This document shows, in pieces, positions 9,790-33,818 of a DNA stretch of 39,957 nt. Position 1 is the stretch's first letter, and each line of letters opens with the position of its first letter. The DNA comes from Burkholderiaceae bacterium. GTDB lineage: Bacteria; Pseudomonadota; Gammaproteobacteria; Burkholderiales; Burkholderiaceae_C. A program made the translations under genes and the position numbers. Under the pieces are notes generated by a model. The model saw only the letters and a list, made by a program, of their open reading frames with translations, did not search any database and was not told the DNA's origin. Location: assembly GCA_024710165.1 (NCBI GenBank), contig JANJVG010000030.1, positions 1 through 39,957 on the forward strand, in the 5' to 3' direction.

Positions 9790-9854
9790 TTGCTACTAAT
9801 AAAATAGCTACAAGCGATTATGAATAAAGGGCTAGAGCCATTTTTTGCTCAAAA
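9790..9854 (+). repeat. Dispersed ~65-bp repeat, copy A
   Basis: A 20-nt head ending in ATAGCT, a 30-nt core ending in GCTAGAGCC, then a T-run and CTCAAAA tail. It lies between the actP terminator and the end of the DUF294 gene and touches no coding sequence. It shares its block lengths with the five other copies in the window. Confidence 0.8.
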
Positions 9855-9904
9855 CCCGCAACCCCTGCTCAGCCGCCGGGTGCAACGCAGGCGTGCGAGC
9901 GGGC

Positions 9905-11725
9905 TCACAGCGCGTCCAGCCGCAGGCGCTGGTGCAGGAACGCCTTGAAGCGCTTGACCACGGCCAGCGCATCCTTGAGCAGGTCGCGCTCCAGGGTGCT
10001 CAACCGCCCGGGATCAACGTCGCCGGTGACCGCGCGGCCGGTGTCGAGTTCGGCCAGACCCGCCTGCAACCGCAGGCCCATGAGGAAGTGAAGGCTCTGC
10101 ACCAGCTCATCGCCCAGCGCTGCATCGAGCACGCCCTCCTGCACCAGGGCCGCGATGCGCTCGGCCGTGCCCGTGGCGGCCACGCGCCGGGCCAGGGCCA
10201 GGCTGCGCACGCCATGCACGATGGGGAAGATGCCCGCTTTTTTCAGGCTGATGGCGCGGCCTTCGTCGCCCAGACCGAACAGGCGGCTCCACCAGCCGGT
10301 GGGGCCGCCGAAGTTCTCCACCGCCGCGGCAAAGCGGGCCAGCACCGCGTCGTTGTCCACAGCCAGCGCTGCCACGCCCTCGCGCACGGCGGCCAGCAGC
10401 ACGGCGTCGCCCGCCACCGCGTGGGCATCGAGAAAAATGGCCAGCTGCATGAGGCTGTCGCCCTCGGGCTGCAGCAGCCACTGGCGCACCCGCCGGCCGA
10501 AAACGCTCGCGGTGCCCCGCCAGTCGGGGTTGCTGACCATGATGCGGCCCGGGCACTCGGGGTAGCCGAAGCGCGCCAGCACCCCGGAAAAGCGCTGGCA
10601 GATGGCGTCCAGGTCGGGCGGCGCGGTGTAGCCGTCGCGCAGCACCAGACCGTTGTCCTGGTCGGTCTTGAGCAATTGCTCGCCGCGCCCTTCGCTGCCC
10701 ATGACGAACAGGCAGCTGTTGTCCACCAGGTCGGCCGGCGCCACCATGGCCCAGGCGCGTTCGAACAGGCGTGCGTTGAGCTGCTGCACCAGCTTGGCCA
10801 TCAGGCCGATGCGCGTGCCGCCACGGTACAGCGCCGCGATCAGCCGCGTGATCTGCGCGGCCGCCTGCGCCAGCGCCTCCAGGTCCTGCGCATGCTCGAT
10901 CTGCACCGTGATCAGGTGCGAATGGTTGGCCAGGAAGCTGAACAGGTCGAGCGCCTCCAGGATGCCGCGCACCTGGCCGTTGTCTTCGACCACCACCAGG
11001 CGGTGCACGCGGCGGCGCAGCATCAGCGCCATGACGTCGCCGAGCTGGTCCGACGGCCGCACGGTGACCACCGGGCCGCTGGCCAGCTCGCCCACGGCCA
11101 GCTGGTCGAGCGGGCGGCCGTCGAGGATGGCGCGCTGCAGTGTGGTGTTGGTAAAGATGCCTAACTCGCCGCCGGGCAGGCCCGTGACCAGGACGTTGGT
11201 GGTGCGCTGCGCCTGGAACAGCCGCACCACCGAGACGATGTCGGTGGCCGCGTCCACCGTGTGCGCCGGGCGCAGGAAGGCCTGGTCCACGCGCGCCAGC
11301 GTGAGCGACTGGCGCTCGTGCTGGTCGGCACGCTGCGCCAGCGCGCTGAGCTTCTGGCCCAGGTCGGAAAACAGCAGCGCGCCGAAGGTGGTGTTGCGCG
11401 CGATGAGCTCATTCACCGCCGCACGCGCGAGCTGGTAGGCCACCACCTCCTCGGCGGCGACAAAACGGCTGCCCACGCGCCCGGTCATCAGGCCGCAGCC
11501 GTCAAAACAGTCGTCCGGGCCGTAGGTGGCCAGCACCTCGTCGCCCTCGGTCTGCGTGACATAGCCCTTGATGAGGATGAACAAGTGCGTGGGCACTGTA
11601 CCCACATCCAGCACCACGGCGCCCTCGGGGAAGTAGGCGATGTCCACGCTGGCGCGCACCAGGCGCTGCTCGTCCGGGCTCAGGCAGTCAAAGGGCGAGG
11701 CGGCGAAATTGAAGGCATTGGGCAT
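9905..11725 (-). CDS. cNMP-like/CBS-domain protein with DUF294 nucleotidyltransferase domain
   Basis: 606 residues, starting at ATG 11725 (MPNAFNFAASPFDCL). Four parts can be seen. A cyclic-nucleotide-binding-like domain spans about residues 10-130. A pair of CBS domains spans about 150-270. A DUF294 nucleotidyltransferase-like domain carries GSEGRGEQ and TDQDN, the motifs of the GlnD/nucleotidyltransferase fold. A helical C-terminal DUF294_C domain ends the protein. Family members are often encoded beside actP or symporter-kinases and are presumed to be regulatory signal-transfer proteins. Here it is convergent with actP. The longer frame running to 12235 overlaps the next gene and is not coding there. 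Confidence 0.87.
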   Translation of the reverse strand: MPNAFNFAASPFDCLSPDEQRLVRASVDIAYFPEGAVVLDVGTVPTHLFILIKGYVTQTEGDEVLATYGPDDCFDGCGLMTGRVGSRFVAAEEVVAYQLARAAVNELIARNTTFGALLFSDLGQKLSALAQRADQHERQSLTLARVDQAFLRPAHTVDAATDIVSVVRLFQAQRTTNVLVTGLPGGELGIFTNTTLQRAILDGRPLDQLAVGELASGPVVTVRPSDQLGDVMALMLRRRVHRLVVVEDNGQVRGILEALDLFSFLANHSHLITVQIEHAQDLEALAQAAAQITRLIAALYRGGTRIGLMAKLVQQLNARLFERAWAMVAPADLVDNSCLFVMGSEGRGEQLLKTDQDNGLVLRDGYTAPPDLDAICQRFSGVLARFGYPECPGRIMVSNPDWRGTASVFGRRVRQWLLQPEGDSLMQLAIFLDAHAVAGDAVLLAAVREGVAALAVDNDAVLARFAAAVENFGGPTGWWSRLFGLGDEGRAISLKKAGIFPIVHGVRSLALARRVAATGTAERIAALVQEGVLDAALGDELVQSLHFLMGLRLQAGLAELDTGRAVTGDVDPGRLSTLERDLLKDALAVVKRFKAFLHQRLRLDAL

Positions 11726-11765
11726 GTGGGATGTGCGCCGGCAGAAGCCGGAGCACCGCCACCAT

Positions 11766-12410
11766 TCAACCCGGCAGGCCTTGCGCCACGCTTGCAGCGG
11801 TGTCCCAGCCCGGGCCGTCGAACCAGGCGTCGCCTTCCAGGCAGGCGCGCAGCATGGGCAGGCTGTCGTAGCCCCAGAAGATCTTGCCATCGACCTCGAA
11901 GGCCGGCACGCCGAACACGCCGCGCGCGGCGGCTGCATCGGTGTTGCTGCGCAGCAGTGCCTTGGCGCGCGCGCCGTCAGCATCGTCGGGCTGCAGCTGC
12001 GGCTCCAGCTCGGCGGCGAGCTGCGTGAGGCGCTCGGCGTCGAGCGCATCCTGCCCGCCCTGCCAGACATGGCGCAGCACCGTGCCCGCGACAAAGCGGT
12101 TGATGCTGCCGTCACGGCTGCAGGCCAGGGACTGGCGCAGCAGCGGCAGCGGGTTGAAAGGGTGGCGCGCCGGCATCGCCAGTGGCACGCCCAGCGAATG
12201 GCCCAGCCAGACGACATGGCGGTAGGTCCAGTCACGCTTCGGAAGAATGCCCGCCGGCCCGGGGTTGGCGTGCCGCTGCAACAGCGCGCCCAGCAGCACC
12301 GGCCGGTATTCCACGATGTAGCTCAAGCCTTCGAGCACCTCGGGCAGGCGCTCGAAGGCCAGCCAGGCGTAGGGCGAAACGAAATCCAGGTGAAAGACGA
12401 TGTGCTTCAT
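11766..12410 (-). CDS. DsbA-fold isomerase, 2-hydroxychromene-2-carboxylate isomerase family
   Basis: 214 residues from ATG 12410 (MKHIVFHLDFVSPYAWLAFERLP). The thioredoxin-like start F-x-L-D-F-x-S-P-Y, with Ser in place of a CxxC motif, is typical of the HCCA isomerase/kappa glutathione transferase family. So is the late motif ARGVFGVPAFEVDGKIFWGYDSLPML. Such enzymes isomerise aromatic breakdown intermediates with glutathione, but many chromosomal members have no proven substrate. It probably forms one transcript with the DUF1289 and YbaK genes upstream. Confidence 0.87.
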   Translation of the reverse strand: MKHIVFHLDFVSPYAWLAFERLPEVLEGLSYIVEYRPVLLGALLQRHANPGPAGILPKRDWTYRHVVWLGHSLGVPLAMPARHPFNPLPLLRQSLACSRDGSINRFVAGTVLRHVWQGGQDALDAERLTQLAAELEPQLQPDDADGARAKALLRSNTDAAAARGVFGVPAFEVDGKIFWGYDSLPMLRACLEGDAWFDGPGWDTAASVAQGLPG

Positions 12411-12436
12411 GGCAGCTCCTTGAGAGACGGGGGAAT

Positions 12437-12688
12437 TCACGGCGGAAAGGGGATTCCTGCGCGCTGCGCCAGCCGCGCCCAGATGGCCAGGCGTTCGGCA
12501 CTGTCGGCCTGCGCCCAGGCGCGGATCTCGGGGATGGTGCGCAAGCACCCCAGGCAATGACTGCGGTCCTCGGACATGCGGCAGACCGAGATGCAGGGCG
12601 AGGGGATCACCTCGTCAGATTTTTCATCAAAATAGCCTGCGGCGCTTAGCAGGATTGCACGATCAGCTATTGGTTTCGTAGCATTCAT
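12437..12688 (-). CDS. DUF1289 protein with repeat-derived N-terminus
   Basis: 83 residues. The family core is IPSPCISVCRMSEDRSHCLGC followed by LRTIPEIRAW, with the four cysteines usual for DUF1289. The start at ATG 12688 is supported by an ATGA overlap with the stop of the YbaK-like gene. Codons 2 to about 24 (NATKPIADRA...) coincide with dispersed repeat copy B, so the N-terminal third is not ancestral to the family. A GTG just before IPSPC could be the older start. The function is unknown; the small cysteine-rich fold may bind a metal. Confidence 0.82.
   Translation of the reverse strand: MNATKPIADRAILLSAAGYFDEKSDEVIPSPCISVCRMSEDRSHCLGCLRTIPEIRAWAQADSAERLAIWARLAQRAGIPFPP
12618..12684 (-). 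repeat. Dispersed ~65-bp repeat, copy B (inside DUF1289 coding sequence)
   Basis: Read on the minus strand: a 20-nt head (ATGCTACG ... AATAGCT), a 31-nt core containing CTAAGCGCCGCAGGC, then TATTTTGATGAAAAA. It lies in frame within the start of the DUF1289 gene and two bases after its ATG. Confidence 0.78.
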
Positions 12689-13173
12689 GCCACCACCTCC
12701 TGCACCACGTCCACCACGGGTGCGCCGGTCAGGCGCTGCAGATCGGCAGGGTGCAGCGGAAACACGCCGTGCGGGTGCCCGGCGGCCGCCCACACCACAT
12801 CGAACCGCCACAGATCGCGGTCGATCAGCGTGACGGGCGGGGTCACATGGGCCACGGGCGAGACACCGCCAATGGAGAACCCCGTGCGCTCCTTCACAAA
12901 GCTGGCATCGGCACGGCCGATCTTTCCGACGTGGGCCTCGACCTTCTTTTCGTCCACACGCCGGTCGCCCGAGGTGATGACGAGGACCGCCGCATCGTCA
13001 CTTTTGCGCCGGAAGATGATGCTTTTGGCCACCTGCCCCACCAGGATGCCCAGCGCATCAGCGGCCTGCTGCGCGGTGCGCGCGGCGTCGTCGAGCATGC
13101 GGGGCATGTGGGGATGGCCTGCCGCCTGGAGTGCGGCAACCACGCGCTGGGTGCCTTCAGGAAAATCGTTCAT
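12685..13173 (-). CDS. YbaK/EbsC-type aminoacyl-tRNA deacylase
   Basis: 162 residues from ATG 13173 (MNDFPEGTQRVVAALQ); a GTG at 13200 gives nine more residues and has no better ribosome site. The fold marks are AQQAADALGILVGQVAKSIIFR, VLVITSGDRRVDEKKV and TGFSIGGVSPVAHV, including the conserved lysine of VAKS and the GGVSPV loop of the YbaK/ProX editing family. These proteins remove wrong amino acids (Ala, Cys and others) from tRNA in trans. The gene overlaps the DUF1289 gene by four bases. Confidence 0.88.
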   Translation of the reverse strand: MNDFPEGTQRVVAALQAAGHPHMPRMLDDAARTAQQAADALGILVGQVAKSIIFRRKSDDAAVLVITSGDRRVDEKKVEAHVGKIGRADASFVKERTGFSIGGVSPVAHVTPPVTLIDRDLWRFDVVWAAAGHPHGVFPLHPADLQRLTGAPVVDVVQEVVA

Positions 13174-13284
13174 GACAAGGATTCGTGGCGGTGCAATCAC
13201 CGCACATCAAAGGGATTCAGGTGGCCCACCGCGGTGGAACGCGACCACACGGTTACAGTGTGATCATTGAGCCCCCGATTGTCC

Positions 13285-15000
13285 ATGAAGCTGCTTCGCG
13301 CCTGCCTGCTCCTGTGTCTCCTGCTCGGCAAACTCTCCCTGGGTTGGGCCGCCCCCGTGGTTCTCGACGACCACCCGCGCGGCCTGTCGCTGAACGAAAC
13401 CGGCCAGCTGCTGGCGCTCACGGACAACCTCGGCACGCTGACGCTGGACGAGATCCTGCAACCCGCCCAGACCGCCCGATTCGCGCCCGTGCCGCCTGCG
13501 CAGCAGCACAGCCCGAGCGAAAAGCCGCGCTGGTTCAAGGTGCAGCTGGAGCAACGCGCCCAGACCGGGGACTGGGTGCTGGCCACGCAGACCACCGCAC
13601 TCCAGGACGCCCGCTTTCACGGCCCGTTCGACGCCACCGGCCGGGCCCTGGCCGCACCGGTGCACACCGGCCTGTCGCAGCCCTTCGCCAGCCGGCCCCT
13701 GGGCAGCGAGCGCTACCTGATGCGCCTGCAACTGCCCGGTCCGGGTGTCTACACGGTCTATGTGCGGCTGCAGGGCGGAACGGCGCCCACCCTGGGCCTG
13801 TCGACCTGGGACACTGCCGAATACCTGCAGTGGCGGCAGCACAAGCGGCTGTTTGACGGCATCTGCTACGGCATCCTGATCGCGCTGCTGGTCTACAACC
13901 TGGTGCTGGCGGGCATCTTCCGGGACCCGGCCTATACCTTCTACATCGGCCAGTGTGCTTGCGCGCTGCTCACGCTGGCCAGCTTCAACGGCCACGCAGC
14001 CCACTACCTGTGGGGCGACTGGCCCTGGTGGCAGGAGCGCAGCAACGTGGTGCTGCCCGGCCTCTGGCTGATCTTCGGCGTGCTGTTCGCCCGCAGCTTT
14101 CTGGACACACCGCGCCGGCCGAGGGTGGACCGCCCCTTGCAGGCCCTGGCCCTGGTGGCCGCCGCGGCTTCGCTGCTGGGCCTGCTGGGCTGGTTTGCCC
14201 TGGCCCAGAAAGCCAACGAGATCATCGCCAGCCTGGGCGCCCTGACGGCCACGGTGTCGGCTGTGATCATCCTGCGGCGCGGCTTCAAGCCGGCACGGTG
14301 GTATCTGGGTGGCCAGGCACTGCTGTTCCTTTCGGTACTGGGCGTGGTGCTGGTCAACTGGAAGCTGATCGATTCCCCCTTTTTGCTGGCCAATGGACTG
14401 CAGCTGGGCGTGGCCGCCGAAATGGTGGTGTTTGCCGTCGCCATGAGCCGACGCATCAGCGGCCTGCGCACGTCGCAGGTCGCACTGCAACTGCATGCGG
14501 CGCACCTGGCCCAGGCGGCCGCCACCGACCCGCTCACCGGTCTGGCCAATCGCACCGGCCTGGCCCAGGGCGCCACGCGGGTGCTGACGGGCGGTTCAGC
14601 GCATGCGCTGATGCTGCTCGACCTGGACCGATTCAAGCCCATCAACGACACCTATGGACACGACGCGGGGGATGCGGTGCTGTGCGCCGTGGCCAAGCGC
14701 CTGCTGGCCCATGCGCGCCCCGGCGACATCGTGGCTCGGCTGGGCGGCGATGAGTTCGTGATTCTGCTGGCAGACGCCCCGCCCGATGTAGCGCTGGCGG
14801 CACTGGCCCTGCGGCTGGACGCCGCCGTGCGCCAGAGCGTGGATTTTCAGGGCCAGCCCCTCAGCGTGGGGGCCAGCACCGGTATCGCTCGCAGCCCGCA
14901 GGACGGCAGCATGCTGACCGAGCTGATGCGCGCCGCAGACCAGGCTATGTACCAGGCCAAGCAGGCCCGCAGGGGCCACGCCTTTTATACGGCGGCCTGA
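13285..15000 (+). CDS. Diguanylate cyclase with 7TMR-DISM sensory module
   Basis: 571 residues from ATG 13285; a TTG at 13267 would add six. A signal peptide ends at GWAAPVV. Next come a periplasmic 7TMR-DISMED2-like domain (about residues 25-185), seven membrane helices (about 190-390; FDGICYGILIALLVYNLVLAGIF starts the set) and a C-terminal GGDEF domain. The GGDEF motif is intact at residues 487-491. The inhibitory I-site RPGD sits five residues before it, so the enzyme should make cyclic-di-GMP and be feedback-inhibited. DPLTGLANR marks the domain start. The ligand of the periplasmic part is unknown. The gene is divergent from the YbaK gene and convergent with liuE. Confidence 0.92.
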   Translation: MKLLRACLLLCLLLGKLSLGWAAPVVLDDHPRGLSLNETGQLLALTDNLGTLTLDEILQPAQTARFAPVPPAQQHSPSEKPRWFKVQLEQRAQTGDWVLATQTTALQDARFHGPFDATGRALAAPVHTGLSQPFASRPLGSERYLMRLQLPGPGVYTVYVRLQGGTAPTLGLSTWDTAEYLQWRQHKRLFDGICYGILIALLVYNLVLAGIFRDPAYTFYIGQCACALLTLASFNGHAAHYLWGDWPWWQERSNVVLPGLWLIFGVLFARSFLDTPRRPRVDRPLQALALVAAAASLLGLLGWFALAQKANEIIASLGALTATVSAVIILRRGFKPARWYLGGQALLFLSVLGVVLVNWKLIDSPFLLANGLQLGVAAEMVVFAVAMSRRISGLRTSQVALQLHAAHLAQAAATDPLTGLANRTGLAQGATRVLTGGSAHALMLLDLDRFKPINDTYGHDAGDAVLCAVAKRLLAHARPGDIVARLGGDEFVILLADAPPDVALAALALRLDAAVRQSVDFQGQPLSVGASTGIARSPQDGSMLTELMRAADQAMYQAKQARRGHAFYTAA

Positions 15001-15016
15001 CGAAGTCCGTCAGGCC
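14994..15016. terminator. Hairpin spanning both stop codons of convergent genes
   Basis: GGCCTGACG-AAGTC-CGTCAGGCC forms a perfect 9-bp stem. It contains the TGA of the cyclase gene (14998-15000) and the stop of liuE (15010-15012, read on minus). It may act as a two-way terminator, but neither side has a T-run, so this is tentative. Confidence 0.5.
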
Positions 15017-15915
15017 CGCTTGTTCAGCAGGGCCACGGCCACGCGCGAGTTGGGCTTGCGCCCCAGGTAGTCACTGATGTAGGCCCCTGCGTCGACGAGC
15101 TTGTCGAGGTCGATGCCGGTTTCAATGCCCATGCCGTGCAGCATGAACACCAGATCCTCGGTAGACACGTTGCCGGTGGCGCCCTTGGCATAGGGGCAGC
15201 CACCCAGCCCTGCCACGGACGACTGGAAGTTCCACACACCCAGCTCCAGCGCAGCCAGCGTATTGGCCAGTGCCTGGCCGTAGGTGTCGTGGAAATGGCC
15301 CGAAACCTCATCGATGCCGTAATGCTGCAGCGTCGCCTCGATGGCGCGCTGCACCGTGCGTGGCGTGCCCACGCCGATGGTGTCGGCCACATCCACGCGC
15401 TGCACGCCAATGCCTTTCATCAATCCGGCCAGGTAGGCCACCTGCTGCGGTGCCACCTCGCCCTCGTAAGGGCAACCCACCGTGCAGCTCATGGCGCCGC
15501 GCACCGCAAGGCCTGCGGCCAGCGCCGCCTCGACCACGGGGGCAAAACGCTCGATGCTCTCGGCAATGCTGCAGTTGATGTTCTTGCGGCTGAAAGCCTC
15601 GCTGGCCGAGCCGAACACCACGATTTCGTCAGGGTGCGTCTTCACCGCTGCGGTATAGCCCTGCAGATTGGGCGTGAGCACCGAGTAGCGTACCCCATGC
15701 TTGCGCTCCAGGCCAGCCATGACCTCCAGGTTATCGGCCATCTGCGGCACCCATTTGGGGCTGACAAAGCTGGTGACCTCGATCTCCTGCAGACCGGCCT
15801 CCTGCAGGCGGTGTACCAGCCCCAACTTGACTTCGGCGGGCACGGGGGATTTTTCGTTCTGCAGGCCGTCGCGCGGGCCGACGTCGATGATCTGGACGCG
15901 GGAGGGAATGCTCAT
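15010..15915 (-). CDS. liuE: Hydroxymethylglutaryl-CoA lyase
   Basis: 301 residues. It cleaves 3-hydroxy-3-methylglutaryl-CoA to acetoacetate and acetyl-CoA, the last step of leucine breakdown. Evidence is the DVGPRDGLQNE start, TSFVSPKWVPQMAD, the metal-binding HFHDTYGQALANT, and the active-site cysteine loop SVAGLGGCPYAKGATGN. AAGGA lies just before ATG 15915. It is the last gene of the minus-strand liu run, 27 bases after the hydroxyacid dehydrogenase gene. Confidence 0.95.
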   Translation of the reverse strand: MSIPSRVQIIDVGPRDGLQNEKSPVPAEVKLGLVHRLQEAGLQEIEVTSFVSPKWVPQMADNLEVMAGLERKHGVRYSVLTPNLQGYTAAVKTHPDEIVVFGSASEAFSRKNINCSIAESIERFAPVVEAALAAGLAVRGAMSCTVGCPYEGEVAPQQVAYLAGLMKGIGVQRVDVADTIGVGTPRTVQRAIEATLQHYGIDEVSGHFHDTYGQALANTLAALELGVWNFQSSVAGLGGCPYAKGATGNVSTEDLVFMLHGMGIETGIDLDKLVDAGAYISDYLGRKPNSRVAVALLNKRA

Positions 15916-15942
15916 GGAGAAGTCCTTGTAGAGAAAGTGCTG

Positions 15943-16863: not shown

Positions 16864-16900
16864 AACGCCCGAGCGTACCGCCTCTTGCGCCCGTTCCATG

Positions 16901-18899
<1,999 letters not shown>

Positions 18900-18907
<8 letters not shown>

Positions 18908-19742: not shown

Positions 19743-19768
19743 GGTGGTTCAGGTGCATCGGTGCGTGC

Positions 19769-20554: not shown

Positions 20555-20580
20555 GGCGGTGCGATGACAAAGATGGTGGT

Positions 20581-21259: not shown

Positions 21260-21261
21260 GG

Positions 21262-21298: not shown

Positions 21299-22906
21299 TC
21301 ACATGCGGAAAAGGCCAAACTTGGTGTCTTCGATCGGCGCATTGCGCGTGGCTGCCAGGCCCAGCGCCAGCACGCGGCGCGTGTCGGCCGGGTCGATCAC
21401 GCCGTCGTCCCACAGGCGGGCGGTGGCGTAGTAGGGGTGGCCCTGGTCTTCATACTGGCGGCGGATGGGGGCCTTGAAGGCTTCTTCTTCCTCCATGCTC
21501 CACTGGCCACCCTTGGCCTCGATGCCGTCACGCTTGACGGTGGCCAGCACCCCGGCGGCCTGGTCGCCGCCCATCACGCTGATGCGCGCGTTCGGCCACA
21601 TCCACAGGAAGCGGGGCGAGTACGCCCGGCCGCACATGCCGTAGTTGCCCGCGCCAAAGCTGCCACCGATGATGATGGTGAACTTGGGCACACTGGCCGT
21701 GGCCACGGCCGTGACCATCTTGGCGCCGTTGCGCGCGATGCCTTCGTTTTCGTACTTGCGGCCCACCATGAAGCCGGTGATGTTCTGCAGGAATACCAGC
21801 GGAATCTTGCGCTGGCAGCACAGCTCGATGAAGTGCGCGCCCTTGAGTGCCGATTCGCTGAACAAAATACCGTTGTTGGCGATGATGCCGACCTGCATGC
21901 CCTCAATGCGCGCAAAGCCCGTGACCAGCGTGGTGCCGTAGCGCGCCTTGAATTCGTCGAACTCGCTGCCATCGACGATGCGGGCAATGATTTCGCGCAC
22001 ATCAAAGGGTTTGCGCGTGTCCACAGGAATCACGCCGTACAGCTCTTCTGCTGCAAATTGAGGAGCTGCCGGCGCATGATCGGCGGGCGCTGGAGCCTTG
22101 TTTTTATTCAAATTCTTGATCGCCATGCGCGCCAGCTTGAGGGCGTGCAGGTCGTTCTGCGCCAGGTGGTCGGCCACGCCCGACAGGCGCGTGTGCACGT
22201 CGCCGCCGCCCAGATCCTCGGCGCTCACCACCTCGCCGGTGGCCGCCTTCACCAGTGGTGGGCCACCCAGGAAGATGGTGCCCTGGTTCTTGACGATGAT
22301 GGATTCGTCGCTCATCGCGGGCACGTAGGCGCCGCCTGCCGTGCAACTGCCCATGACCACCGCGATCTGCGAGATGCCCATGGCGCTCATGGTGGCCTGG
22401 TTGAAGAAAATGCGGCCGAAGTGGTCGCGGTCGGGAAACACCTCGTCCTGGTTGGGCAGGTTCGCGCCGCCCGAGTCCACCAAATAAATACACGGCAGGT
22501 GGTTCTGCTGCGCCACTTCCTGCGCACGCAGGTGCTTCTTGACGGTGAGGGGGTAGTAGGTGCCGCCCTTCACGGTGGCGTCGTTGCACACGATCATGCA
22601 ATCGACACCGCTCACGCGCCCGATGCCGGCGATCAGGCCCGCGCCGGGGGCGTCGTTGTTGTACATGTTCAGCGCGGCCAGCGGCGCCAGCTCCAGAAAG
22701 GGCGTTCCGGGGTCGAGCAGCATCTGCACGCGCTCGCGCGGCAGCAGCTTGCCGCGTGCAGTGTGCTTGGCGCGGGCCGCTTCGCCGCCGCCCTCGAACG
22801 TCTTGGCGATCTGCGCGTTCAGGTCTTCGACCAGCGTGCGCATGGCAGCGGCATTGGCCAGAAAATCGGCCGAGCGGGCGTTGAGTTGGGTCTGCAGAAC
22901 GGGCAT
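21299..22906 (-). CDS. liuB: Methylcrotonyl-CoA carboxylase, beta (carboxyltransferase) subunit
   Basis: 535 residues from ATG 22906 ([20 protein letters not shown]), the usual length for the family. Motifs are [69 protein letters not shown], and in the second half [22 protein letters not shown] and [28 protein letters not shown]. It moves CO2 from biotin on LiuD to 3-methylcrotonyl-CoA. Residues about 264-287 ([20 protein letters not shown]), the linker between the two crotonase-like halves, coincide with dispersed repeat copy C kept in frame. It is the first gene of the operon and is divergent from the AraC regulator. Confidence 0.94.
22048..22113 (+). repeat. Dispersed ~65-bp repeat, copy C (inside liuB)
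   Basis: Plus-strand reading: 20-nt head CTGCTGCAA...GGAGCT, 30-nt core GCCGGCGC...GCTGGAGCC, then TTGTTTTTATTCAAAT. It falls wholly within liuB on the opposite strand, at the interdomain linker. Its length difference is invisible to the frame. Confidence 0.75.
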
Positions 22907-23043: not shown

Positions 23044-24120
23044 GTGACGCCACAACCCCAAGCTCCGCTTCCCGGCACCCTGCTGCCCCCTCTGCCCGCA
23101 GGGCCTGCAGCGACGCCCATGGCGTTTGTCCAGGCCATTGCACAGGCCTGCCGGCAAGCCGGCCTGCCGCCCGAAAACCTGCTCCAGCAGGCACAAATTG
23201 CGCCACAGGAACTGGAAAACCCTGCCGCGCATGTCACCGCCTGGCAGTTCGAGCGGCTTTCGGGCCTGGCCATGCAGGCGCTGGATGACGAGGCACTGGG
23301 CTGGTTCAGCCGCCGCCTGCCCTGGGGCAGCTACGGCATGCTGGCGCGCGCCTCCATCAGCTCGCCCACGCTGGGCGTGGCTTTGCAGCGCTGGTGCCGC
23401 CACCACGGCCTGCTGCAGGACGACATCTCGCTGCACCTGGACAGCGAGGGTGCCACCGCCACGCTTTCGCTCACCACGCACCGCGACCTCGGGCCTTTCC
23501 GCGAGTTCTGCCCGGTCTCGGTGCTGCGCAACGCGCACGGCCTGGCCTGCTGGTTCATCGACTCGCGCATTCCGCTGCAGGGGGCGCAATTTCCGTTTGC
23601 CCGGCCCGCCCACCACGAGGCCTATGGTGTGCTGTTTCCGGGGCCCACCCGGTTCGGGACGGGGCCCGCGGCCATCCGCTTCGATGCCCGCTACCTGCAG
23701 CTGCCCCTGCAGCGCGACGAAGCCGCCCTGCGCCTGATGCTGCAGCGCGCCCTGCCCCTGACGGTGCTGCAGTACCGGCGCGACCGGCTGCTGGTGCAAC
23801 GCGTGCGCCATACGCTGGCGGCCGACCCGGCCGCCGCCCACAGTGCCGAGGCCCTGGCCCAGCGCCTGCACCTGTCGCCGCGCACGCTGCACCGCCAGCT
23901 GAAGGAGGAAGGCGCCTCCTTGCAGGGCCTCAAGGACGAGGTGCGGCGCGAACGCGCCATTGCCCTGCTGCACCGCACCGAGCGGCCGATCAAGCAGGTG
24001 GCGCATGAGGCGGGGTTCACCAACGACAAAAGCTTCATCCGGGCCTTCCGGGGGTGGACCGGGCTCTCGCCCGCCGAGTTCCGCCGCCAGGGCAAGACTG
24101 CAGGAAAACTATTGATTTGA
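23044..24120 (+). CDS. AraC-family transcriptional regulator, divergent from liuB
   Basis: 358 residues from GTG 23044; ATG 23119 ([15 protein letters not shown]) gives 333. The first ~200 residues match the AraC-binding-like N-terminal domain (PF12625 type): [23 protein letters not shown]-like [19 protein letters not shown] and FPGPTRFG. The C-terminal ~85 residues form the double helix-turn-helix ([23 protein letters not shown], then [29 protein letters not shown]). Its place directly opposite liuB suggests it controls the liu operon, probably with an acyl-CoA or acid ligand. This is inference. The last codons and the TGA stop lie inside repeat copy D. Confidence 0.88.
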
Positions 24121-24172: not shown

Positions 24173-24280
24173 TCATATCCACACCGTACTGCAGGGCAAG
24201 GCACTGCATGAACGAAATTCCGATTCACCCTACACTGCCTGAACATCCGCCCACCACCCCAGCGACTACCGAGCTTGGCC

Positions 24281-27448: not shown

Positions 27449-27640
27449 TATGGCCCTCATGTCACCCATGTGACATTAAGGGAAAACCCTTGAATCGTAA
27501 TATTTGCTTACATCGACGCTCCTGCACATCACCGACTGGATCAGGCTTCGACGTGTTTCAAAGAGCCCATGCAAGCCACCCCTTCCGGGCCTTGCCGGTC
27601 ATCCCCCCTGCCCTCGCGGGTGTCTGTTTGGAGTAACGCC
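27449..27640. promoter_or_regulatory. Leader of the chemotaxis receptor with an 18-bp inverted repeat
   Basis: ATGTCAC-CCAT-GTGACAT at 27459-27476 is a perfect inverted repeat, starting about 10 bases after the stop of the cyclic-di-GMP gene. A small hairpin AAGGG-AAAA-CCCTT follows at 27478-27491. Neither has a T-run, so an operator is as likely as a weak terminator. No clear sigma28 promoter is seen. Confidence 0.4.
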
Positions 27641-29416
27641 TTGTTCAATCTTTCTTCCTGGCGCGTGCGCACCCGCCTGACTGCGGGTTTTGGCGCCGTC
27701 TGTGTCTTGCTGGTGGCATCGGTGCTGCTGGGCCTGGTGTCCATGGGCCGTATCGGAGCCGACCTCAACGCCGTGGTGAGCCACCACTTTCCGCGCATCG
27801 TGATGTCCGCCAACATCGCCACGCAGACCGACGTGATTGCGGTTGCGCTGCGCAACATGATGCTGACCTACGACCCCGCTGACCGCGAGCGCCAGCTCCA
27901 GGTCATCGAACAGGCTCGCCAGGAATCGGTCAAGCTGCTCGACACCCTCGACACGGCACTGAGCGAGCCCGCATCCCGCGCCCTGCTGGACAAAGTAAAA
28001 GCGCAACGGGCGCTGTACCTGGCAGGCCAGCAGGAGCTGATCGACCTGATCAAGAGCGACCAGGCCGACCTGAGCCGCGAGTACCTCACCAACAAGCTGC
28101 GTCCGGTGCTGGCCAACTACAAGACGGCCATTGGCGCGCTGGTGGAATCAGAAAAAGACGCCATCGTGGGCGCCGGTACGGACGCCCAGGCCACCGCCGT
28201 GAGCGCGCGCACCGCCCTGATTGGCCTGGGCCTGGTCGCCCTGCTGCTGGCGGCAGCCCTGGGGGCACTCATCACACGCAGCCTGCTGCGCGAACTCGGC
28301 GGCGAGCCCCGCGCCGCCGCCGACGTGGCGCGTGCGGTGGCTGGCGGTGACTTCACTTACCCGATCACCGTGCGGGCAGGCGACGAAACCAGCCTGATGG
28401 CCCAGCTGAGCGCCATGAAGCAAGGCCTGGCCAGCGTGGTGGCGCAGGTGCGGCGCAGCTCTGAAAGCGTGGCCATGGCCAGCTCGGAAATCGCACAGGG
28501 CAACCAGGACTTGTCGGCCCGCACCGAAAGCCAGGCCAGCGCGCTGGAAGAAACCGCCGCCTCCATGGAGCAGCTGGGCGCCACCGTGCGCCAGAACGCC
28601 GACAGCGCCAGCCAGGCCAATGCGCTGGCACGCAGCGCTTCGGACGTGGCCGTGCGCGGCGGCGAGGTGGTGGGCCAGGTGGTGCAGACCATGAAGGGCA
28701 TCAACGAGAGCTCGCAGCGCATTGCCGACATCATCGGCGTGATCGACGGCATTGCCTTCCAGACCAACATCCTGGCGCTGAATGCCGCCGTGGAAGCCGC
28801 CCGCGCCGGCGAACAGGGCCGGGGCTTTGCCGTGGTTGCCAGCGAGGTGAGGTCCCTGGCCGGTCGCAGCGCCGAGGCCGCCAAGGAGATCAAACAGCTC
28901 ATCAGCGCCAGCGTGGAGCGCGTGGAGCAAGGCAGCGCCATGGCCGACCAGGCGGGCGAGACCATGACCGAGGTGGTGCAGAGCATCCGCCGCGTGACCG
29001 ACCTCATGGGCGAAATCAACGCAGCCAGTTCCGAGCAGGCCAGCGGCGTGGCCCAGGTGGGTGAGGCCGTGACGCAGATGGACCATGCCACGCAGCAAAA
29101 CGCCGCGCTGGTTGAAGAGATGGCTGCCGCCGCAGGCAGCCTGAGCGGCCAGGCGCAAGAACTGGTACAGGCCGTGGCGGTGTTCAAGCTCGATGCCAGC
29201 CAGAGCGGCTCCAGCGCTTACAGCACGCCCACTGCCCGCCCCGCACCCAAGGCTGCCCCGGTGCGCATGCCTGCGGCGCCGCGCAAACCTGCTGCGCTCA
29301 AGGCGGCCCCCGCCAAACCCGTGCCGGCCAAGCCGGCCGCACTGCACGCCCCCCAGCCCACCCAACCCGCCAAGGCGGCCAGCGCCGGCGCAGACGACGA
29401 CTGGGAATCCTTCTGA
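27641..29416 (+). CDS. Methyl-accepting chemotaxis protein
   Basis: 591 residues from TTG 27641, chosen because GGAG sits eight bases before it; an ATG at 27569 in the same frame lacks one. Membrane helices are near 10-32 and 190-212, with a four-helix-bundle-type periplasmic sensor between them. A HAMP domain and the signalling coiled coil follow. The hairpin tip is intact ([39 protein letters not shown]), and [12 protein letters not shown] gives a methylation region. A Pro/Ala/Lys-rich linker ends in DDDWESF, like the C-terminal pentapeptide that tethers CheR and CheB. The ligand is unknown. Confidence 0.93.
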
Positions 29417-29427
29417 GGCCCAGCGTT

Positions 29428-29443
29428 CCACCCGCGCGGGTGG
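29428..29443. terminator. GC-rich palindrome between convergent MCP and HAD genes
   Basis: CCACCCGCGCGGGTGG is a perfect 16-bp palindrome in the 33-base gap between the two convergent genes. It is a possible shared terminator, although it has no T-run. Confidence 0.4.
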
Positions 29444-29449
29444 GGCCCA

Positions 29450-30112
29450 TCAGCCCAGCAGCGCGGGCAATTCGCTCATGTGCACCATCACGTGCACCGC
29501 TCCGGCAGCCCGCAGCGCCCCGGGCGCACCATGCCCCACCGGCGAGGGGCTGAAACCCACCACCGTGGCACCTGCGGCCACCCCGGCCGCAACACCGGTC
29601 ACGGTGTCTTCCACCACCAGGCAGCGCTGCGGCGGCACGCCCAGCGCGGCGGCGGCCGCCAGGTACACGTCGGGCGCGGGCTTGGTGGCCGGCATTTCGT
29701 GCCCGCTGAAGACACGGCCCGCAAAAAGCGGCGCCAGCCCCACCTTCTCGAGCTGCATCTCGACCTTGAACCGGTCGGCCCCTGAAGCACAGGCAATGCG
29801 CCCACCCAGGCGGGCATGCACAACGCGCACGGCCTCCACCGCACCCTCGATCGGCTGCAATTCGGCCTCCAGCCGGGCATTGCGCCGGGCATAGAACGCC
29901 GCCATCCAGGCGTCGGTGAGGGGCTGGCCGGTATGCGCCTGAATGCGAGCGGCCTCGCTGCGCACCGTCTTGCCGACAAAGAGATGCATGCACTCCTGCG
30001 GCGACAAGGACCAGCCCGCCTCGTTCAGCATGGCGCACAGCACACCGTTGGTGATGGATTCGCTATCGACCAGCACCCCATCGCAGTCAAACAAGATGGC
30101 ATCAAATTTCAT
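29450..30112 (-). CDS. HAD-superfamily phosphatase (phosphoglycolate phosphatase / beta-PGM-like)
   Basis: 220 residues. It has the four HAD motifs: DCDGVLVDSE (nucleophile and acid), ACASG (Ser), KPAPDVYL (Lys) and VVEDTVTGVAAGVAAGA (acid pair). The helical cap between motifs I and II marks the CbbY/Gph-like subfamily, which acts on small phosphate esters. The substrate is unknown. The ATG at 30112 and the first five codons (MKFDA) lie within dispersed repeat copy E, and no ribosome site is evident. Confidence 0.87.
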   Translation of the reverse strand: MKFDAILFDCDGVLVDSESITNGVLCAMLNEAGWSLSPQECMHLFVGKTVRSEAARIQAHTGQPLTDAWMAAFYARRNARLEAELQPIEGAVEAVRVVHARLGGRIACASGADRFKVEMQLEKVGLAPLFAGRVFSGHEMPATKPAPDVYLAAAAALGVPPQRCLVVEDTVTGVAAGVAAGATVVGFSPSPVGHGAPGALRAAGAVHVMVHMSELPALLG

Positions 30113-30163
30113 AGCTAAATGCGCTTGATGGATAAGGGCTAGAGCCTGATTTCATTCATAAAA
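30097..30163 (+). repeat. Dispersed ~65-bp repeat, copy E (covers start of HAD gene)
   Basis: Head TGGCATCAA...CATAGCT at 30097-30116, core AAATGCGCTTGATGG...GGGCTAGAGCC at 30117-30146, tail TGATTTCATTCATAAAA. The HAD start codon is at 30112-30110 on the opposite strand. The tail ends next to the stop of the YchJ gene. Confidence 0.82.
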
Positions 30164-30164
30164 C

Positions 30165-30572
30165 CTAACGGATGTCGCCATCCACGTACAGCCAGCGTCC
30201 GGCCTCGCACACAAACCGGCTGCGTTCGTGCAGGCGCACCGCACGCCCAGCCAGGCGGTAGCGCGCCACAAATTCGACCTCGGCCTGCCCGGGGCCGGTG
30301 CTGCGGTGCTGACGCACCTCCAGCCCGAGCCAACGCGCACCGGCATCCAGCTCGAGCTGGGCCGGACGGGTGCCGGGGTGCCAGGTGGCCTGCAGATAGT
30401 CGGCACGCCGGAGTACAAACGCGGTGTAGCGCGAGCGCATCAGGCTCTCGGCGTCGGGGGCTGGGGTGCTGTCCCAGTGGTCAAGATAGCGCCCGCAGCA
30501 ATCAGCGTAGGCCTGCAGTGCCCCCCGGCGGCCAGTGCGGCCACAGGGACAGGCGTCGGTGGTCAGGGTCAT
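30165..30572 (-). CDS. ychJ: YchJ-family (UPF0225) SEC-C-like protein
   Basis: 135 residues. The N-terminal CPCGRTG ... [10 protein letters not shown] is the cysteine-rich zinc-binding motif of SEC-C/YchJ proteins. [28 protein letters not shown] and the later [34 protein letters not shown] are characteristic of the NTF2-like YchJ family. The molecular function is not established. The protein ends at the tail of repeat copy E. Confidence 0.88.
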
Positions 30573-30646
30573 GGAGCGGAACCGGGGAGACGGTGGCTAG
30601 GAAACCGGCCTGGTCACCAGACAAGGGGCGTGGACCCGTGGATGCC

Positions 30647-31855
30647 TCAGAGAATCGCCCCGGCCGCCCGCTCGCCGCGCTCGTAGACCACATGGGCCCG
30701 CCCCACGATGAGCGGGTCGAGCTTGCCAATGGTGTCGGCCGCCTTGTTGGCGTAGGGCAGCTTGTGCAGCACGTAACGCATGGCATTGAGGCGCGCGCGC
30801 TTCTTGCAGTCGCTCTTGATCACGGTCCAGGGGGCGTCGGCCGTGTCGGTGTCAAAGAACATGGCCTCCTTGGCGCGGGTGTAGTCCTCCCATTTGTCGA
30901 GCGAGGCCAGATCGACAGGGCTGAGCTTCCACTGTTTGAGCGGGTGCACCTCGCGCTCCTTGAAGCGGCGGCGCTGCTCGGCGCGGCTCACCGAGAACCA
31001 GAATTTGATGAGGTGCACGCCACTGCGCACCAGGTGGCGCTCGAACTCGGGCGCCTGGCGCATGAACTCGTGGTATTCGGCGTCGGAGCAAAAGCCCATC
31101 ACGCGCTCGACACCCGCGCGGTTGTACCAGCTGCGATCGAACAGCGCGATCTCGCCCGCCGTGGGCAGGTGCTGGATGTAACGCTGGAAATACCACTGGC
31201 CGCGCTCCACATCGCTGGGCTTTTCGAGCGCCACCACGCGCGCGCCGCGCGGGTTCAGGTGCTCCATGAAGCGCTTGATGGCGCCGCCCTTGCCCGCTGC
31301 GTCGCGCCCCTCGAACAGGATCACCACGCGCTGGCCCGTCTCCTTGACCCAGGCCTGCAGCTTGAGCAGCTCCACCTGGAGCTGGTATTTCTGCGCCTCG
31401 TAGGTGCTGCGGCGCATCAGGTGCCGGTAAGGATAGCCACCGTCGCGCCAGTCGGCGGCCAGTTCGTCGTCCGGGTCGCCCTTGCCGATGGGCGCTGCGC
31501 CTGTCGCTGCATCGGACATCAGGGCCCTACGCAGCATGGCACGGTCGTCCTGCGAGGCGCCCTCCAACAAGGCACGCAGGGCCGCAGCACGCTGGCGCGC
31601 CGGAATGTCGGCGTTGTCCACCAGGTCCTGCACTGCGGCAAGCTGGCTGGCCTGCGCGGCCTGTGTGGCCTCGCTCTGCACATGGCGCGCTACGGCAGCC
31701 TGGGTCAACGCGGGGGCCGTGTCGCCCTTGCGCGCCCTGCGCGGGCGCTCGGCTGCGGGTGCGGCACGCGTCGCGCGGCGACGGCTGGCGGGTGTGGGCG
31801 GGCTGGGTTCGGTGGCCGTGGTGGCAACGGCCGGTGCGGTGTCTTTGGCGCTCAT
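30647..31855 (-). CDS. ppk2: Polyphosphate kinase 2 (PPK2 family)
   Basis: 402 residues from ATG 31855 (MSAKDTAPAV). The first ~100 residues are a low-complexity, Ala/Arg/Pro-rich extension. The PPK2 domain follows: Walker A GRDAAGKGGAIKRF, Walker B IALFDRSWYNRAGVERVMGF, and the lid region VSRAEQRRRFKEREVHPLKQWKLSPVD. It transfers phosphate between polyphosphate and nucleotides. The single-domain layout resembles class I enzymes that make ATP or GTP from the diphosphates. The gene stands alone between ychJ and the acyl-CoA dehydrogenase gene. Confidence 0.92.
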   Translation of the reverse strand: MSAKDTAPAVATTATEPSPPTPASRRRATRAAPAAERPRRARKGDTAPALTQAAVARHVQSEATQAAQASQLAAVQDLVDNADIPARQRAAALRALLEGASQDDRAMLRRALMSDAATGAAPIGKGDPDDELAADWRDGGYPYRHLMRRSTYEAQKYQLQVELLKLQAWVKETGQRVVILFEGRDAAGKGGAIKRFMEHLNPRGARVVALEKPSDVERGQWYFQRYIQHLPTAGEIALFDRSWYNRAGVERVMGFCSDAEYHEFMRQAPEFERHLVRSGVHLIKFWFSVSRAEQRRRFKEREVHPLKQWKLSPVDLASLDKWEDYTRAKEAMFFDTDTADAPWTVIKSDCKKRARLNAMRYVLHKLPYANKAADTIGKLDPLIVGRAHVVYERGERAAGAIL

Positions 31856-31919
31856 GAACACATTTTGACACCAGCCGTCAGGGGACACCAGTGCAGGCGG
31901 CGCACACAACGCCAGTGCA

Positions 31920-33050
31920 TCACGCCAAGGCGCGCTGGATGATGATCTTCTGCACGTCGCTCGTGCCTTCGTAGATCTGGCACACGCGCACGTCGCGGTA
32001 GATGCGCTCGACCGGAAAGTCGTTGACCACGCCGTAGCCGCCCAGCGTCTGGATGGCGGCGCTGCAGACGCGCTCAGCCATTTCGCTGGCGAACAGCTTG
32101 GCCATGGCCGCTTCCTTCAAACAGGGCTGGCCTGCATCGCGCAGTGCGGCGGCATGCCAGATGAGTTGGCGCGCGGCCTCGATCTGCGTGGCGCAATCGG
32201 CCAGACGGAAACCCACGGCCTGGTGGTTAAAGATGGGGGTGCCAAAGCTCTCGCGCTCTTTGGAATACGCCAGCGCCGCATCAAACGCGCTGCGCGCCAT
32301 GCCCACGCTCTGCGCGGCGATGCCGATGCGGCCGCCTTCGAGTGCGCCCAGGGCAATCTTGTAGCCCTCGCCTTCGGCGCCGATCAGGTTTTCGGCCGGG
32401 ATGCGGCAGTTGTCAAAGTTGATTTGCGCGGTGTCGCTGCTGTGCTGGCCCAGCTTGTCTTCCAGGCGGGCCACCACGTAACCGGGGTTGCTGGTGGGCA
32501 CGAGGAAGGCGCTCATGCCCTTCTTGCCCGCGCCCTTGTCGGTAACGGCGATAACGATGGCCACATGGCCGTTCTTGCCGCTGGTGATGAACTGCTTGAC
32601 GCCGTTGATGACGTATTCGTCGCCCTGCTTCACCGCCGTGGTGCGCAGCGCCGACGCGTCCGAGCCCACGTGCGGCTCGGTCAGGCAAAACGCGCCCAAC
32701 ATTTCGCCGCGCGCCAGGGGCGCGAGCCAGTCGCGCTTTTGCTGCGCGTTGCCGTAGCGCATGAGGATGGCGTTGACGGGGCAGTTGGTCACCGAGATGG
32801 CGGTGCTGGTGCCGCCGTCACCGGCAGCGATCTCTTCAAGCACGAGGGCGAGCGTGAGGTAGTCCAGCCCCGCGCCGCCCAGGTCTTCGGGCACGCAGAT
32901 GCCGTAGGCGCCAAGCTGGGCCAGGCCCTGGTGGGCATCGCGCGGGAAGTGGTGTTCCTTGTCCCAGCGCGCCGCATTCGGCCACAGTTGCTCCTGGGCG
33001 AAAGCGCGCACAGCGTCGCGGATCATTTCCTGGTCTTGGGTCAGCAGCAT
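31920..33050 (-). CDS. Short/medium-chain acyl-CoA dehydrogenase
   Basis: 376 residues with the standard fold. FCLTEPHVGSDASALRTTA and YVINGVKQFITSGKNGHV form the flavin-binding region. GGYGVVNDFPVERIYRDVRVCQIYEGTSDVQ carries the catalytic glutamate of butyryl-CoA-type dehydrogenases. GGAGA precedes ATG 33050. It oxidises a short acyl-CoA to the enoyl-CoA and passes electrons to ETF. It is the last gene of the minus-strand run that includes the SDR and thiolase, so it may act on branched or short chains from amino-acid breakdown. Confidence 0.92.
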   Translation of the reverse strand: MLLTQDQEMIRDAVRAFAQEQLWPNAARWDKEHHFPRDAHQGLAQLGAYGICVPEDLGGAGLDYLTLALVLEEIAAGDGGTSTAISVTNCPVNAILMRYGNAQQKRDWLAPLARGEMLGAFCLTEPHVGSDASALRTTAVKQGDEYVINGVKQFITSGKNGHVAIVIAVTDKGAGKKGMSAFLVPTSNPGYVVARLEDKLGQHSSDTAQINFDNCRIPAENLIGAEGEGYKIALGALEGGRIGIAAQSVGMARSAFDAALAYSKERESFGTPIFNHQAVGFRLADCATQIEAARQLIWHAAALRDAGQPCLKEAAMAKLFASEMAERVCSAAIQTLGGYGVVNDFPVERIYRDVRVCQIYEGTSDVQKIIIQRALA

Positions 33051-33082
33051 GGGGTCTCCGTCAATGTGTTGTCAGTGGGCGT

Positions 33083-33751
33083 TCACCAGTGGGCGGCGCG
33101 CTGGCCGTCGTGGTGCAAGAGCCGGCCCTTGTCGGCGGGGGTAAGGTGGGCGAGGGTATGGCGCATGCCGCGCACGCTGTCTTCCACGCTGAGCGGCGCA
33201 CGCTCGCCGCCCATATCGGTGCGCACCCAGCCAGGGTCGATGGTGACCAGCGTGGCGCGCGGGTAATCGTGCTGCGCGGCCGCCACGGCCATGTTGAGCG
33301 CGGCCTTGCTGGTGCGGTAGAGCCAGGCGCTGCTCTCGCCCACGCTGCCGATCTGCGACATGGACGAGGACAGGAAGGCGAACACGCCGCCCGCCGCCTC
33401 CACCAGCGGCGCCACCTGCGGGATGGCCTGCATGGCGCCCAGCACGTTGGCGTGCATCACAGCGTCGAAATCGGGTTGCGTGGGCGGGGTGCGCGCGCCG
33501 GGGCGGCGCATCACGCCGGCCACGTAGAGCGCAACGTCGATCTCCTCGCCGTCGAGCTGCCAGGCCAGGCCGCTGACGCTGGCGGGGTTGGCCACGTCGA
33601 GCGTCAGGGCCTGGGCGCCGAGCGCCTGCACGCGCGCGCGACCGGCCTCGTCGCGCACGGTGGCGATGACGCGGCAACCCTCGGCGGCGTACTGGCGCGC
33701 CAGCTCCAGGCCGATGCCGCGCGAGGCGCCGATCACCAGGACAGTGGACAT
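33083..33751 (-). CDS. Short-chain dehydrogenase/reductase (SDR)
   Basis: 222 residues of the classical SDR fold. The cofactor-binding GASRGIG is near residues 8-14, the active-site Ser is in FLSSSMSQIG, and Tyr/Lys are in YRTSKAAL. The NNAG motif is replaced by YVAGVM. The short length and C-factor-like pattern (WVRTDMGGERAPLSVEDSV) place it among CsgA-like SDRs with unknown substrates. The gap to the thiolase gene is filled by repeat copy F, and no ribosome site is seen before ATG 33751. Confidence 0.88.
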   Translation of the reverse strand: MSTVLVIGASRGIGLELARQYAAEGCRVIATVRDEAGRARVQALGAQALTLDVANPASVSGLAWQLDGEEIDVALYVAGVMRRPGARTPPTQPDFDAVMHANVLGAMQAIPQVAPLVEAAGGVFAFLSSSMSQIGSVGESSAWLYRTSKAALNMAVAAAQHDYPRATLVTIDPGWVRTDMGGERAPLSVEDSVRGMRHTLAHLTPADKGRLLHHDGQRAAHW

Positions 33752-33818
33752 AGTTAAATATCAAAAAGGCCGATGACGCCCTATGGACGGGCGCCACCAG
33801 CTATCAACATAAGAGCAA
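33752..33818 (-). repeat. Dispersed ~65-bp repeat, copy F (fills the leader of the SDR gene)
   Basis: Minus-strand reading: head TTGCTCTTATG...GATAGCT at 33818-33799, core GGTGGCGCCCGTCC...GGCC, tail TTTTTGATATTTAACT reaching the SDR start codon. It makes up nearly the whole 75-base gap between thiolase and SDR. Confidence 0.75.

Follow-up and report, generated by a model that had tools for sequence, protein, structure and literature searches.

The uptake signal sequences (USS) of the Pasteurellaceae and the DNA uptake sequences (DUS) of the Neisseriaceae occur, according to the sections available of PMC1939737, PMC7811141 and PMC2397512, in many chromosomal copies, in both orientations, between genes and at permissive sites in coding sequence. 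Here we describe an element of about 65 bp that shares these properties, starting from six copies in a 39,957-nucleotide stretch of DNA (the window) from a Burkholderiaceae bacterium (assembly GCA_024710165.1, contig JANJVG010000030.1, positions 1 to 39,957). In the same sections, uptake signals are said to evolve through point mutations in sequence that was already there (PMC1939737), and USS to combine a GC core with A/T tracts of narrow minor groove (PMC7811141); the element likewise has a GC core with A/T tracts, and part of its copies changed in place. It differs from DUS and USS in length and information (~65 bp and ~50 bits against a core of ~10 bp, or ~31 bp in all for USS), in density (one per ~5.6 kb against one per kb), in having an internal dyad, and in that half-sites were not seen in the loci of the source genome.

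Two classes of repeats also come close. With repetitive extragenic palindromic (REP) sequences, their hairpin-forming doublets (REPIN) and the REP-associated tyrosine transposases (RAYT), the element shares short dyad repeats near gene ends, copies in the hundreds and a RAYT-like Y1 gene in the genome; unlike them, it has no GTAG/CGTC tag in its consensus (as defined in the section available of PMC3733652), does not go together with the Y1 gene, leaves gene length equal with and without a copy at several sites, and keeps its positions between species. The BRE repeat of Bordetella and other Betaproteobacteria is reported from Polaromonas, Acidovorax, Delftia and Rhodoferax; in the part of PMC3110155 available it is ~90 bp long, 69% GC in Bordetella, partly tandem and present in at most 29 copies, whereas the element has ~67 columns, 42% GC and ~680 copies, the two being compared by description and not letter by letter.

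The element has been noticed before in pieces. Table 7 of PMC5217627 (2017) lists, as "potential novel motifs", GCTTAT(N)5AAGCG in Acidovorax ebreus and ATAGCT(N)22CAAAAG in Polaromonas naphthalenivorans, with 114 and 125 copies that are mostly intergenic and close to genes (44 convergent and 4 divergent for the first motif, 34 convergent for the second). Their letters and spacing match columns 12–27 and 0–33 of the element, and we infer that both pairs are probably fragments of it. In the section of that paper available, the two spaced pairs are given no role and are not linked, and the full motif, its overlay on genes, its orthology and its loss are absent. No other description was found in literature searches on repeats, REPs and uptake sequences in Comamonadaceae, nor with six exact core words.

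The copies are fixed at orthologous sites, and at least part of them arose by substitution in place and are maintained at the DNA level. Copies were scored with an ungapped position weight matrix, and not a covariance model, built from the exact cores of the source genome and reused on other genomes (below, G and L numbers denote genomes and sequence stretches). Directed comparisons in a syntenic block covering the window, G068, G084 and G062 show the element at the orthologous place in 60 of 62 cases (copies scoring 30 bits or more, both flanks alignable within 600 nt, each pair counted from both sides), and in the same orientation in all 30 distinct orthologous pairs. Only the window copy at 24103 against G068 and a weak G062 copy against G084 lack a partner; a further weak G068 copy (26.5 bits, under the 30-bit cut) is without a counterpart in G084 and G062. 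Identity is 71% inside the element and 84.8% in the aligned flanks, which indicates that the motif is kept while its letters change.

The clearest view of how copies come about is given by those written over genes. All 41 in-gene copies outscore each of 300 synonymous recodings (mean 54.6 vs −2.7 bits), and the signal therefore lies in the DNA and not in the protein. In conserved enzymes these copies hold the same codon position across genera. In the acyl-CoA carboxyltransferase the region scores 27–51 bits in 12 element-bearing sequences (that of the source genome included) and −28 to −47 bits in 10 without the element, and the linker length is equal in 16 of 18 orthologs, the other two being 6 and 9 nt longer. 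The comparison was extended to nine more enzymes in up to 13 genomes (named after NCBIfam models; RNase II-like and UvrA under the model cut-offs); the sites were picked where the source genome has a copy, and cover 9 of its 19 in-gene copies in addition to the carboxyltransferase copy of the window, itself one of the 19. The HscA region is 105 nt long in all 12 orthologs, with 21–49 bits in all seven from element-rich genomes and −39 to −59 in the five others. AroE carries the element in 6 of 7 rich orthologs; 2 of 4 element-free or element-poor ones have exactly the same length, as does G015, which also lacks the element. All seven rich orthologs of the RNase II-like gene contain the element, and 3 of 5 others match it in length. 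In PrmB, too, all seven rich orthologs contain it (99–108 nt), the five others measuring 96 or 108 nt (3 of 5 within 3 nt). In ArgF the element is found only in the genus of the source genome (46–55 bits); in G004, G010, G015 and G018 the region is likewise 105 nt long and reaches −49 to 1 bits, scores are 5 and 15 bits in the congeners G060 and G081, and altogether 6 of 9 relatives without the element have the same length. Relatives of equal length without the motif point to birth or loss by substitution, not insertion, at those sites.

The motif itself is ungapped and spans ~65–67 positions, with conserved columns from −17 to about +52 relative to ATAGCT and sharp ends (159 copies, five genomes). 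From left to right it consists of a GCTAT-like head, an A/T tract (−5 to −3, A or T in 95–97%), ATAGCT with a nearly invariant AGC, four variable bases, GCGCTT, a seven-base loop, AAG(C/G)GC, a GAGGCC-like block, a second A/T tract (+38 to +41) and AAA. Fixed block lengths, claimed in the first-pass annotation from the six window copies, hold throughout: with spacers of 2–6 nt allowed the core still occurs 241 times, against 2 in the control, and the spacer is 4 nt at every listed place. Of the T-rich and then A-rich tail also claimed there, the "T-rich" part is in fact an A/T tract, columns 38–41 reading TTTT in 57, ATTT in 46 and AAAA in 22 of the 159 copies.

The hairpin is, as had been proposed, imperfect: 68.6% of the stem cells pair in an alignment of 72 of the 74 copies from the source genome, and 32 of these 72 have no pair in the middle of the stem. 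Covariation in the stem is present though weak (0.189 vs 0.146 ± 0.010 in shuffles and at most 0.123 in slid versions), and none was found between GCTAT and ATAGC in the head. The strongest column correlations link neighbours (e.g., AA/GG at 23–24 and TTT/AAA at 39–41) rather than stem partners, which argues that the element is not mainly an RNA structure. An element acting as RNA was dropped on these grounds, the dyad covariation being weak and the head hairpin showing none. Copies are 42% GC within DNA of 67% GC. The columns are degenerate as A-or-T or as C-or-G, other bases being rare, and this suggests reading through the minor groove. The motif holds ~50 bits (60 relative to base composition), although 13.5 bits would do for its frequency. 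Half-sites are missing from the loci of the source genome, where 42 of 42 ATAGCTN4GCGC and 32 of 32 GCGCTTN7AAGCGC lie within full copies.

In 415,957 nt of the source genome the matrix, trained on these same loci, finds 74 copies (two overlapping one another in L021), against none in a first-order Markov control and 0–2 in reversed sequence. This extrapolates to ~680 copies in the 3.83-Mb genome, or about one per 5–6 kb. The whole genome contains 241 exact cores (ATAGCTN4GCGCTT), 115 and 126 on the two strands and thus without strand bias, and its reversed pattern does not occur; the copies are accordingly far commoner than in shuffled sequence and are not the chance similarities that the first-pass annotation had allowed for. 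Scores in the source genome run from 34 to 83 bits without a decayed tail, and copies in G010, G015 and G003 go down to 16–20 bits.

Across the family, at least 10 exact cores are present in 49 of 300 genomes and none in 195 (row tallies, as are those for the genus below), with strong contrasts inside genera. The first description as an old, dispersed, dyad-bearing element of fixed length is borne out for part of the Comamonadaceae. In the genus of the source genome, 22 of 26 genomes have 30–271 exact cores, and G060, G075, G081 and G076 have 1, 1, 3 and 10, respectively. In a tree of a single gene, the carboxyltransferase with the element region excised, these four cluster inside the genus, G076 being sister to the other three and intermediate, with partly decayed copies (L107 and L079 overlap in its copy list). 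A second lineage without the element, G018, branches among rich ones, with weak support for its exact place (0.69). The element has thus been nearly lost in a nested clade of the genus; counts by themselves do not separate gains from losses across the family. Named records with the extended core are, among the matches listed, mostly Acidovorax, with Simplicispira, Giesbergeria, Comamonas, Ottowia, Alicycliphilus, Rhodoferax and others in addition. The extended core is also present in L234, a contig labelled Bacteroidaceae from a roe deer rumen metagenome-assembled genome, which is perhaps misbinned Comamonadaceae or a chance match. Exact extended cores further occur in 74 IMG/VR viral contig stretches (L294–L367; 104 copies in a total of 706 kb, with flanks of prophages and genes of phages pooled).

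Placement was examined for 240 copies scoring at least 30 bits in 11 genomes. Of these, 105 lie in co-oriented gaps (median 11 nt from the stop codon), 38 in convergent and 14 in divergent gaps, 38 run across the end of a gene, 41 fall within genes and 4 lie at the ends of stretches. The ratio of convergent to divergent gaps, 38:14, compares with 89:135 among all gaps of at least 50 nt (p = 2e-5). Within each orientation, in-gene copies favour a single reading frame (15 of 23 antisense copies, 14 of 18 sense copies). In ten contiguous stretches with 149 copies the spacing is more even than chance, with a coefficient of variation of 0.690 vs 0.929 ± 0.071 for uniform placement (0 of 2000) and 0.868 ± 0.065 for an intergenic null (p = 0.0005). 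Replichore polarity was considered and dropped; G004 has 134 forward and 132 reverse copies, and a run of plus-strand copies in its listing is most likely an artefact, the density listed being that of forward copies spread along the entire chromosome.

The best reading of these data, which we hold tentatively, is that of a long uptake-signal-like sequence for natural transformation. A double-stranded recognition motif of ~65 bp would be created and maintained in place along the chromosome, and a trans-acting system would read its GC core with dyad symmetry and its two A/T tracts about four helical turns apart, probably in part through the minor groove. The reader may be the type IV pilus/competence machinery, the motif working like DUS or USS. 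Own DNA bearing the motif would be taken up preferentially, recombine and so drive the motif into permissive sites, and lineages that lose or change the specificity would let it erode. This reading is favoured because, among known motifs, uptake sequences are those that arise in preexisting sequence, at permissive sites, and are kept by drive or selection, and because of the core with A/T tracts in USS, the transformability of Acidovorax and the selective uptake in Verminephrobacter. In the section available of PMC4212676, Acidovorax temperans and A. facilis are naturally competent, and for Verminephrobacter competence is reported and selective uptake inferred, with no sequence identified. Records of both Acidovorax species carry the core, among the matches listed.

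Several observations weigh against an uptake signal. Many DUS arise by recombination and not by point mutation, as argued in the part available of PMC2397512; the element is several times longer than DUS and USS cores and about five times sparser. ComEC (46 of 48) and DprA (35 of 35) are found in element-rich, element-poor and element-free genomes alike, the source genome included. For A. defluvii and A. delafieldii, the section of PMC4212676 reports no detectable transformation, and records of both carry the core too, among the matches listed (the A. delafieldii record is not of the tested strain); A. temperans was transformed there only by DNA of its own species and not by that of A. defluvii, A. 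delafieldii or A. facilis. Very short spacings have a share unlike that of the uniform null but not distinguishable from that of the intergenic one (p = 0.37), and accessory DNA is not depleted (4 copies in 19.7 kb of it, against 32 in 197.8 kb elsewhere), in a contrast that is underpowered. Finally, some genes are longer with the element: PurL and DapE by 9–18 nt (present in 7 of 7 and 6 of 7 rich orthologs), UvrA with 90–126 nt against 33–54 nt without (G015 having only 18 bits), and GluQRS with 105 nt, in the two rich orthologs retrieved, against 36–96 nt. With many gaps also longer, insertion or linker growth is possible for part of the copies.

Loss of competence genes as the cause of element loss was dropped, since ComEC and DprA do not discriminate. 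In G003, whose copies are weaker, ComEC (L437, G003:C1:1836740-1837544) is split over three frames, by pseudogenisation or by assembly errors.

The main rival of an uptake signal is an architectural site, at which a lineage-specific DNA-binding or nucleoid protein would bind every ~6 kb and organise the chromosome, selection keeping the sites; we regard this as possible, if somewhat doubtful. The even spacing, the lack of an orientation preference, the preference for gene ends with few divergent gaps, and a dyad core with two A/T tracts that, some four turns from each other, face the same side of the helix all agree with it, as does the loss of the element in whole lineages. An excess of information as large as ~50 bits over the 13.5 needed is nevertheless unusual for binding sites selected one by one, presence and absence inside single genera (g126, g119, g92) would be odd for a core chromosome function, and no candidate protein was found. 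The same excess of information would fit an origin of the copies in a REP- or MITE-like (miniature inverted-repeat transposable element) sequence, the kind of element suggested in the first-pass annotation, once transposed, e.g., by a RAYT-like Y1 transposase, and now fixed and domesticated. Such an origin would also fit a dyad element in many copies, the Y1_Tnp gene in 8 of 8 element-rich family genomes tested, UvrA and GluQRS longer here by 51–72 and 9–69 nt, respectively, than in five element-poor or element-free orthologs each, and intergenic gaps that, when they hold a copy, exceed those of element-poor congeners by 50–129 nt in 9 of 13 comparisons without rearrangement (24 comparisons in all, 6 with a difference above 1 kb left out, insertion and deletion being ambiguous). 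The shorter gaps may, however, be deletions in lineages that lost the element, and element-free relatives have the same length in HscA (5 of 5), ArgF (6 of 9), the RNase II-like gene (3 of 5), AroE (2 of 4) and the carboxyltransferase. The fixation at orthologous sites with orientation kept, the even spacing and the lack of a decayed score tail in the source genome speak against mobility as well, and the Y1_Tnp gene (~250 aa), found in 34 of 42 family genomes including element-free and element-poor ones, does not follow the distribution of the element (8 of 8 rich genomes against 26 of 34 others, p = 0.32). Of other MITE features, no conserved columns were found outside −17 to +52 and no clean empty site among the sites compared; target-site duplications were not searched for systematically. 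Taken together, the REP or MITE reading does not stand up well, and we consider it unlikely.

A bidirectional intrinsic terminator or mRNA 3′-end structure used as a repeat would account for the A/T tract that comes after the GC dyad on either strand, for the closeness to stop codons in co-oriented gaps and for the weak dyad covariation. The right tract, however, is T-rich as often with as without an incoming gene (77 of 101 vs 42 of 56, p = 0.85), so that tract orientation is independent of transcription; 41 of the 240 copies are inside genes, 8 of the 18 sense ones having an A tract at this place, and the mid-stem pair is missing in the 32 copies mentioned above. A terminator is therefore disfavoured, and we consider it very improbable.

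The surroundings of the RAYT-like gene (L087, L088, L089, L093, L094; L090; L091, L092) can be described separately. The gene has GGGGTCAGA-like flanks, and a match above 15 bits (18–67) follows its stop codon in 5 of 6 element-rich loci read. The copy has 42 and 67 bits in G061 and G064 and is weak (18–26 bits) in the source genome, G068 and G084; none above 15 bits follows the gene in G062, and by eye only a decayed head is seen in the element-poor G060 and G081.

Copies of the element are also found on plasmids. The DUF1010 integron cassette, which we take to be gcuF, has a full copy (63.5 bits, L458:2491-2557) between dfrA12 and aadA2 on the Escherichia coli plasmid pP11b, and the cassette of Citrobacter pCTX-M3 has another (62.4 bits, L463:352-418). 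Among 72,556 plasmid records, 1,825 contain a match to the cassette region, which in 1,744 of these spans 80% of the query or more. On plasmid pYKBP039 (L462:532-2194), six tandem units of ~319 bp are found next to blaIMP-1, and in each of them a GTTAGAC box precedes the element copy by exactly 82 nt; they are apparently related integron cassettes built around the element. These data suggest that the DUF1010 and pYKBP039 cassettes are of Comamonadaceae origin. A blastn search of the plasmids with the consensus returned 6 of 72,556 records, and is thus insensitive, because one copy-bearing cassette alone occurs in 1,825.

Hundreds of sites, some over coding sequence at unchanged length, imply a strong DNA-reading system in a large bacterial family, and the element shows that drive or selection at the DNA level can shape enzymes. 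In the case of an uptake label, one could test directly which sequence underlies selective uptake in Verminephrobacter and Acidovorax; an architectural role would make it a chromosome-organising site of unusually high information content. More speculatively, it may represent a new long class of self-recognition label, with which Comamonadaceae would select conspecific DNA, which would rewrite housekeeping enzymes and be lost repeatedly with its specificity, and which the DUF1010 (gcuF-type) cassette would carry into clinical plasmids as a mark of where the cassette came from, the Comamonadaceae; we would not be surprised if this broader view failed. Presence and absence within genera provide natural element-free controls. 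For annotation, the element forms segments of proteins, such as the N-terminus of a DUF1289 protein and part of DUF1010.

In the window, the six copies reported from inspection of the letters were recovered by the matrix, precisely six at 44–74 bits with a threshold of 8. For all six, the coordinates are those of the 67-column match widened by two conserved columns:

9787..9855, forward strand: copy 1, 74.3 bits over 67 columns of the position weight matrix
12619..12687, reverse strand: copy 2, 50.4 bits
22045..22113, forward strand: copy 3, 44.6 bits
24103..24171, forward strand: copy 4, 73.6 bits
30094..30162, forward strand: copy 5, 70.0 bits
33753..33821, reverse strand: copy 6, 44.4 bits

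No transposase lies next to the element within the window, as had been observed at the outset. Genes were called with a simple caller made for this analysis. Copy 1 lies between convergent genes for an SSF symporter (7949-9685, forward) and a DUF294/CBS protein (9905-11725, reverse), and its counterpart in G068 lies between the same two genes. Copy 2 encodes, in frame, the N-terminal stretch MNATKPIADRAILLSAAGYFDE.. of a DUF1289 protein (PF06945; open reading frame 12437-12811, reverse), which the caller missed and whose start and peptide were read by eye from the sequence; it has counterparts in G068, G084 and G062. Copy 3 is antisense within the acyl-CoA carboxyltransferase gene (21299-22906, reverse; Carboxyl_trans, PF01039), whose match to the mmdA subfamily model is under its cut-off. 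Copy 4 overlaps the 3′ end of a called gene (23119-24120, forward) and has no counterpart at the corresponding place in G068. A HAD hydrolase gene (PF00702; 29450-30112, reverse) starts within the head of copy 5, which supplies its start codon and the codons next to it (MKFDAI..); this copy has counterparts in G068, G084, G062 and G076. Copy 6, with counterparts in G068, G084 and G062, takes up nearly the whole 75-nt gap between the genes for a short-chain dehydrogenase (33083-33751, reverse) and a thiolase (33827-35017, reverse).

The window has no Rfam match at the gathering threshold; of four weak matches at E ≤ 1, none falls on a copy. One of them, to a SorX-like small RNA (9703-9763), lies directly upstream of copy 1 under the gathering score, and a partial match to 5S rRNA (39881-39957), also under that score, is truncated by the window end. 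Among copy 5 (window 30094-30160) and its orthologs in G068, G084 and G062, the loop varies from species to species as if inverted (GATGGAT vs ATCCATA), and neighbouring columns change jointly (AA/GG, TTT/AAA), a pattern that template switching at the dyad may have left.

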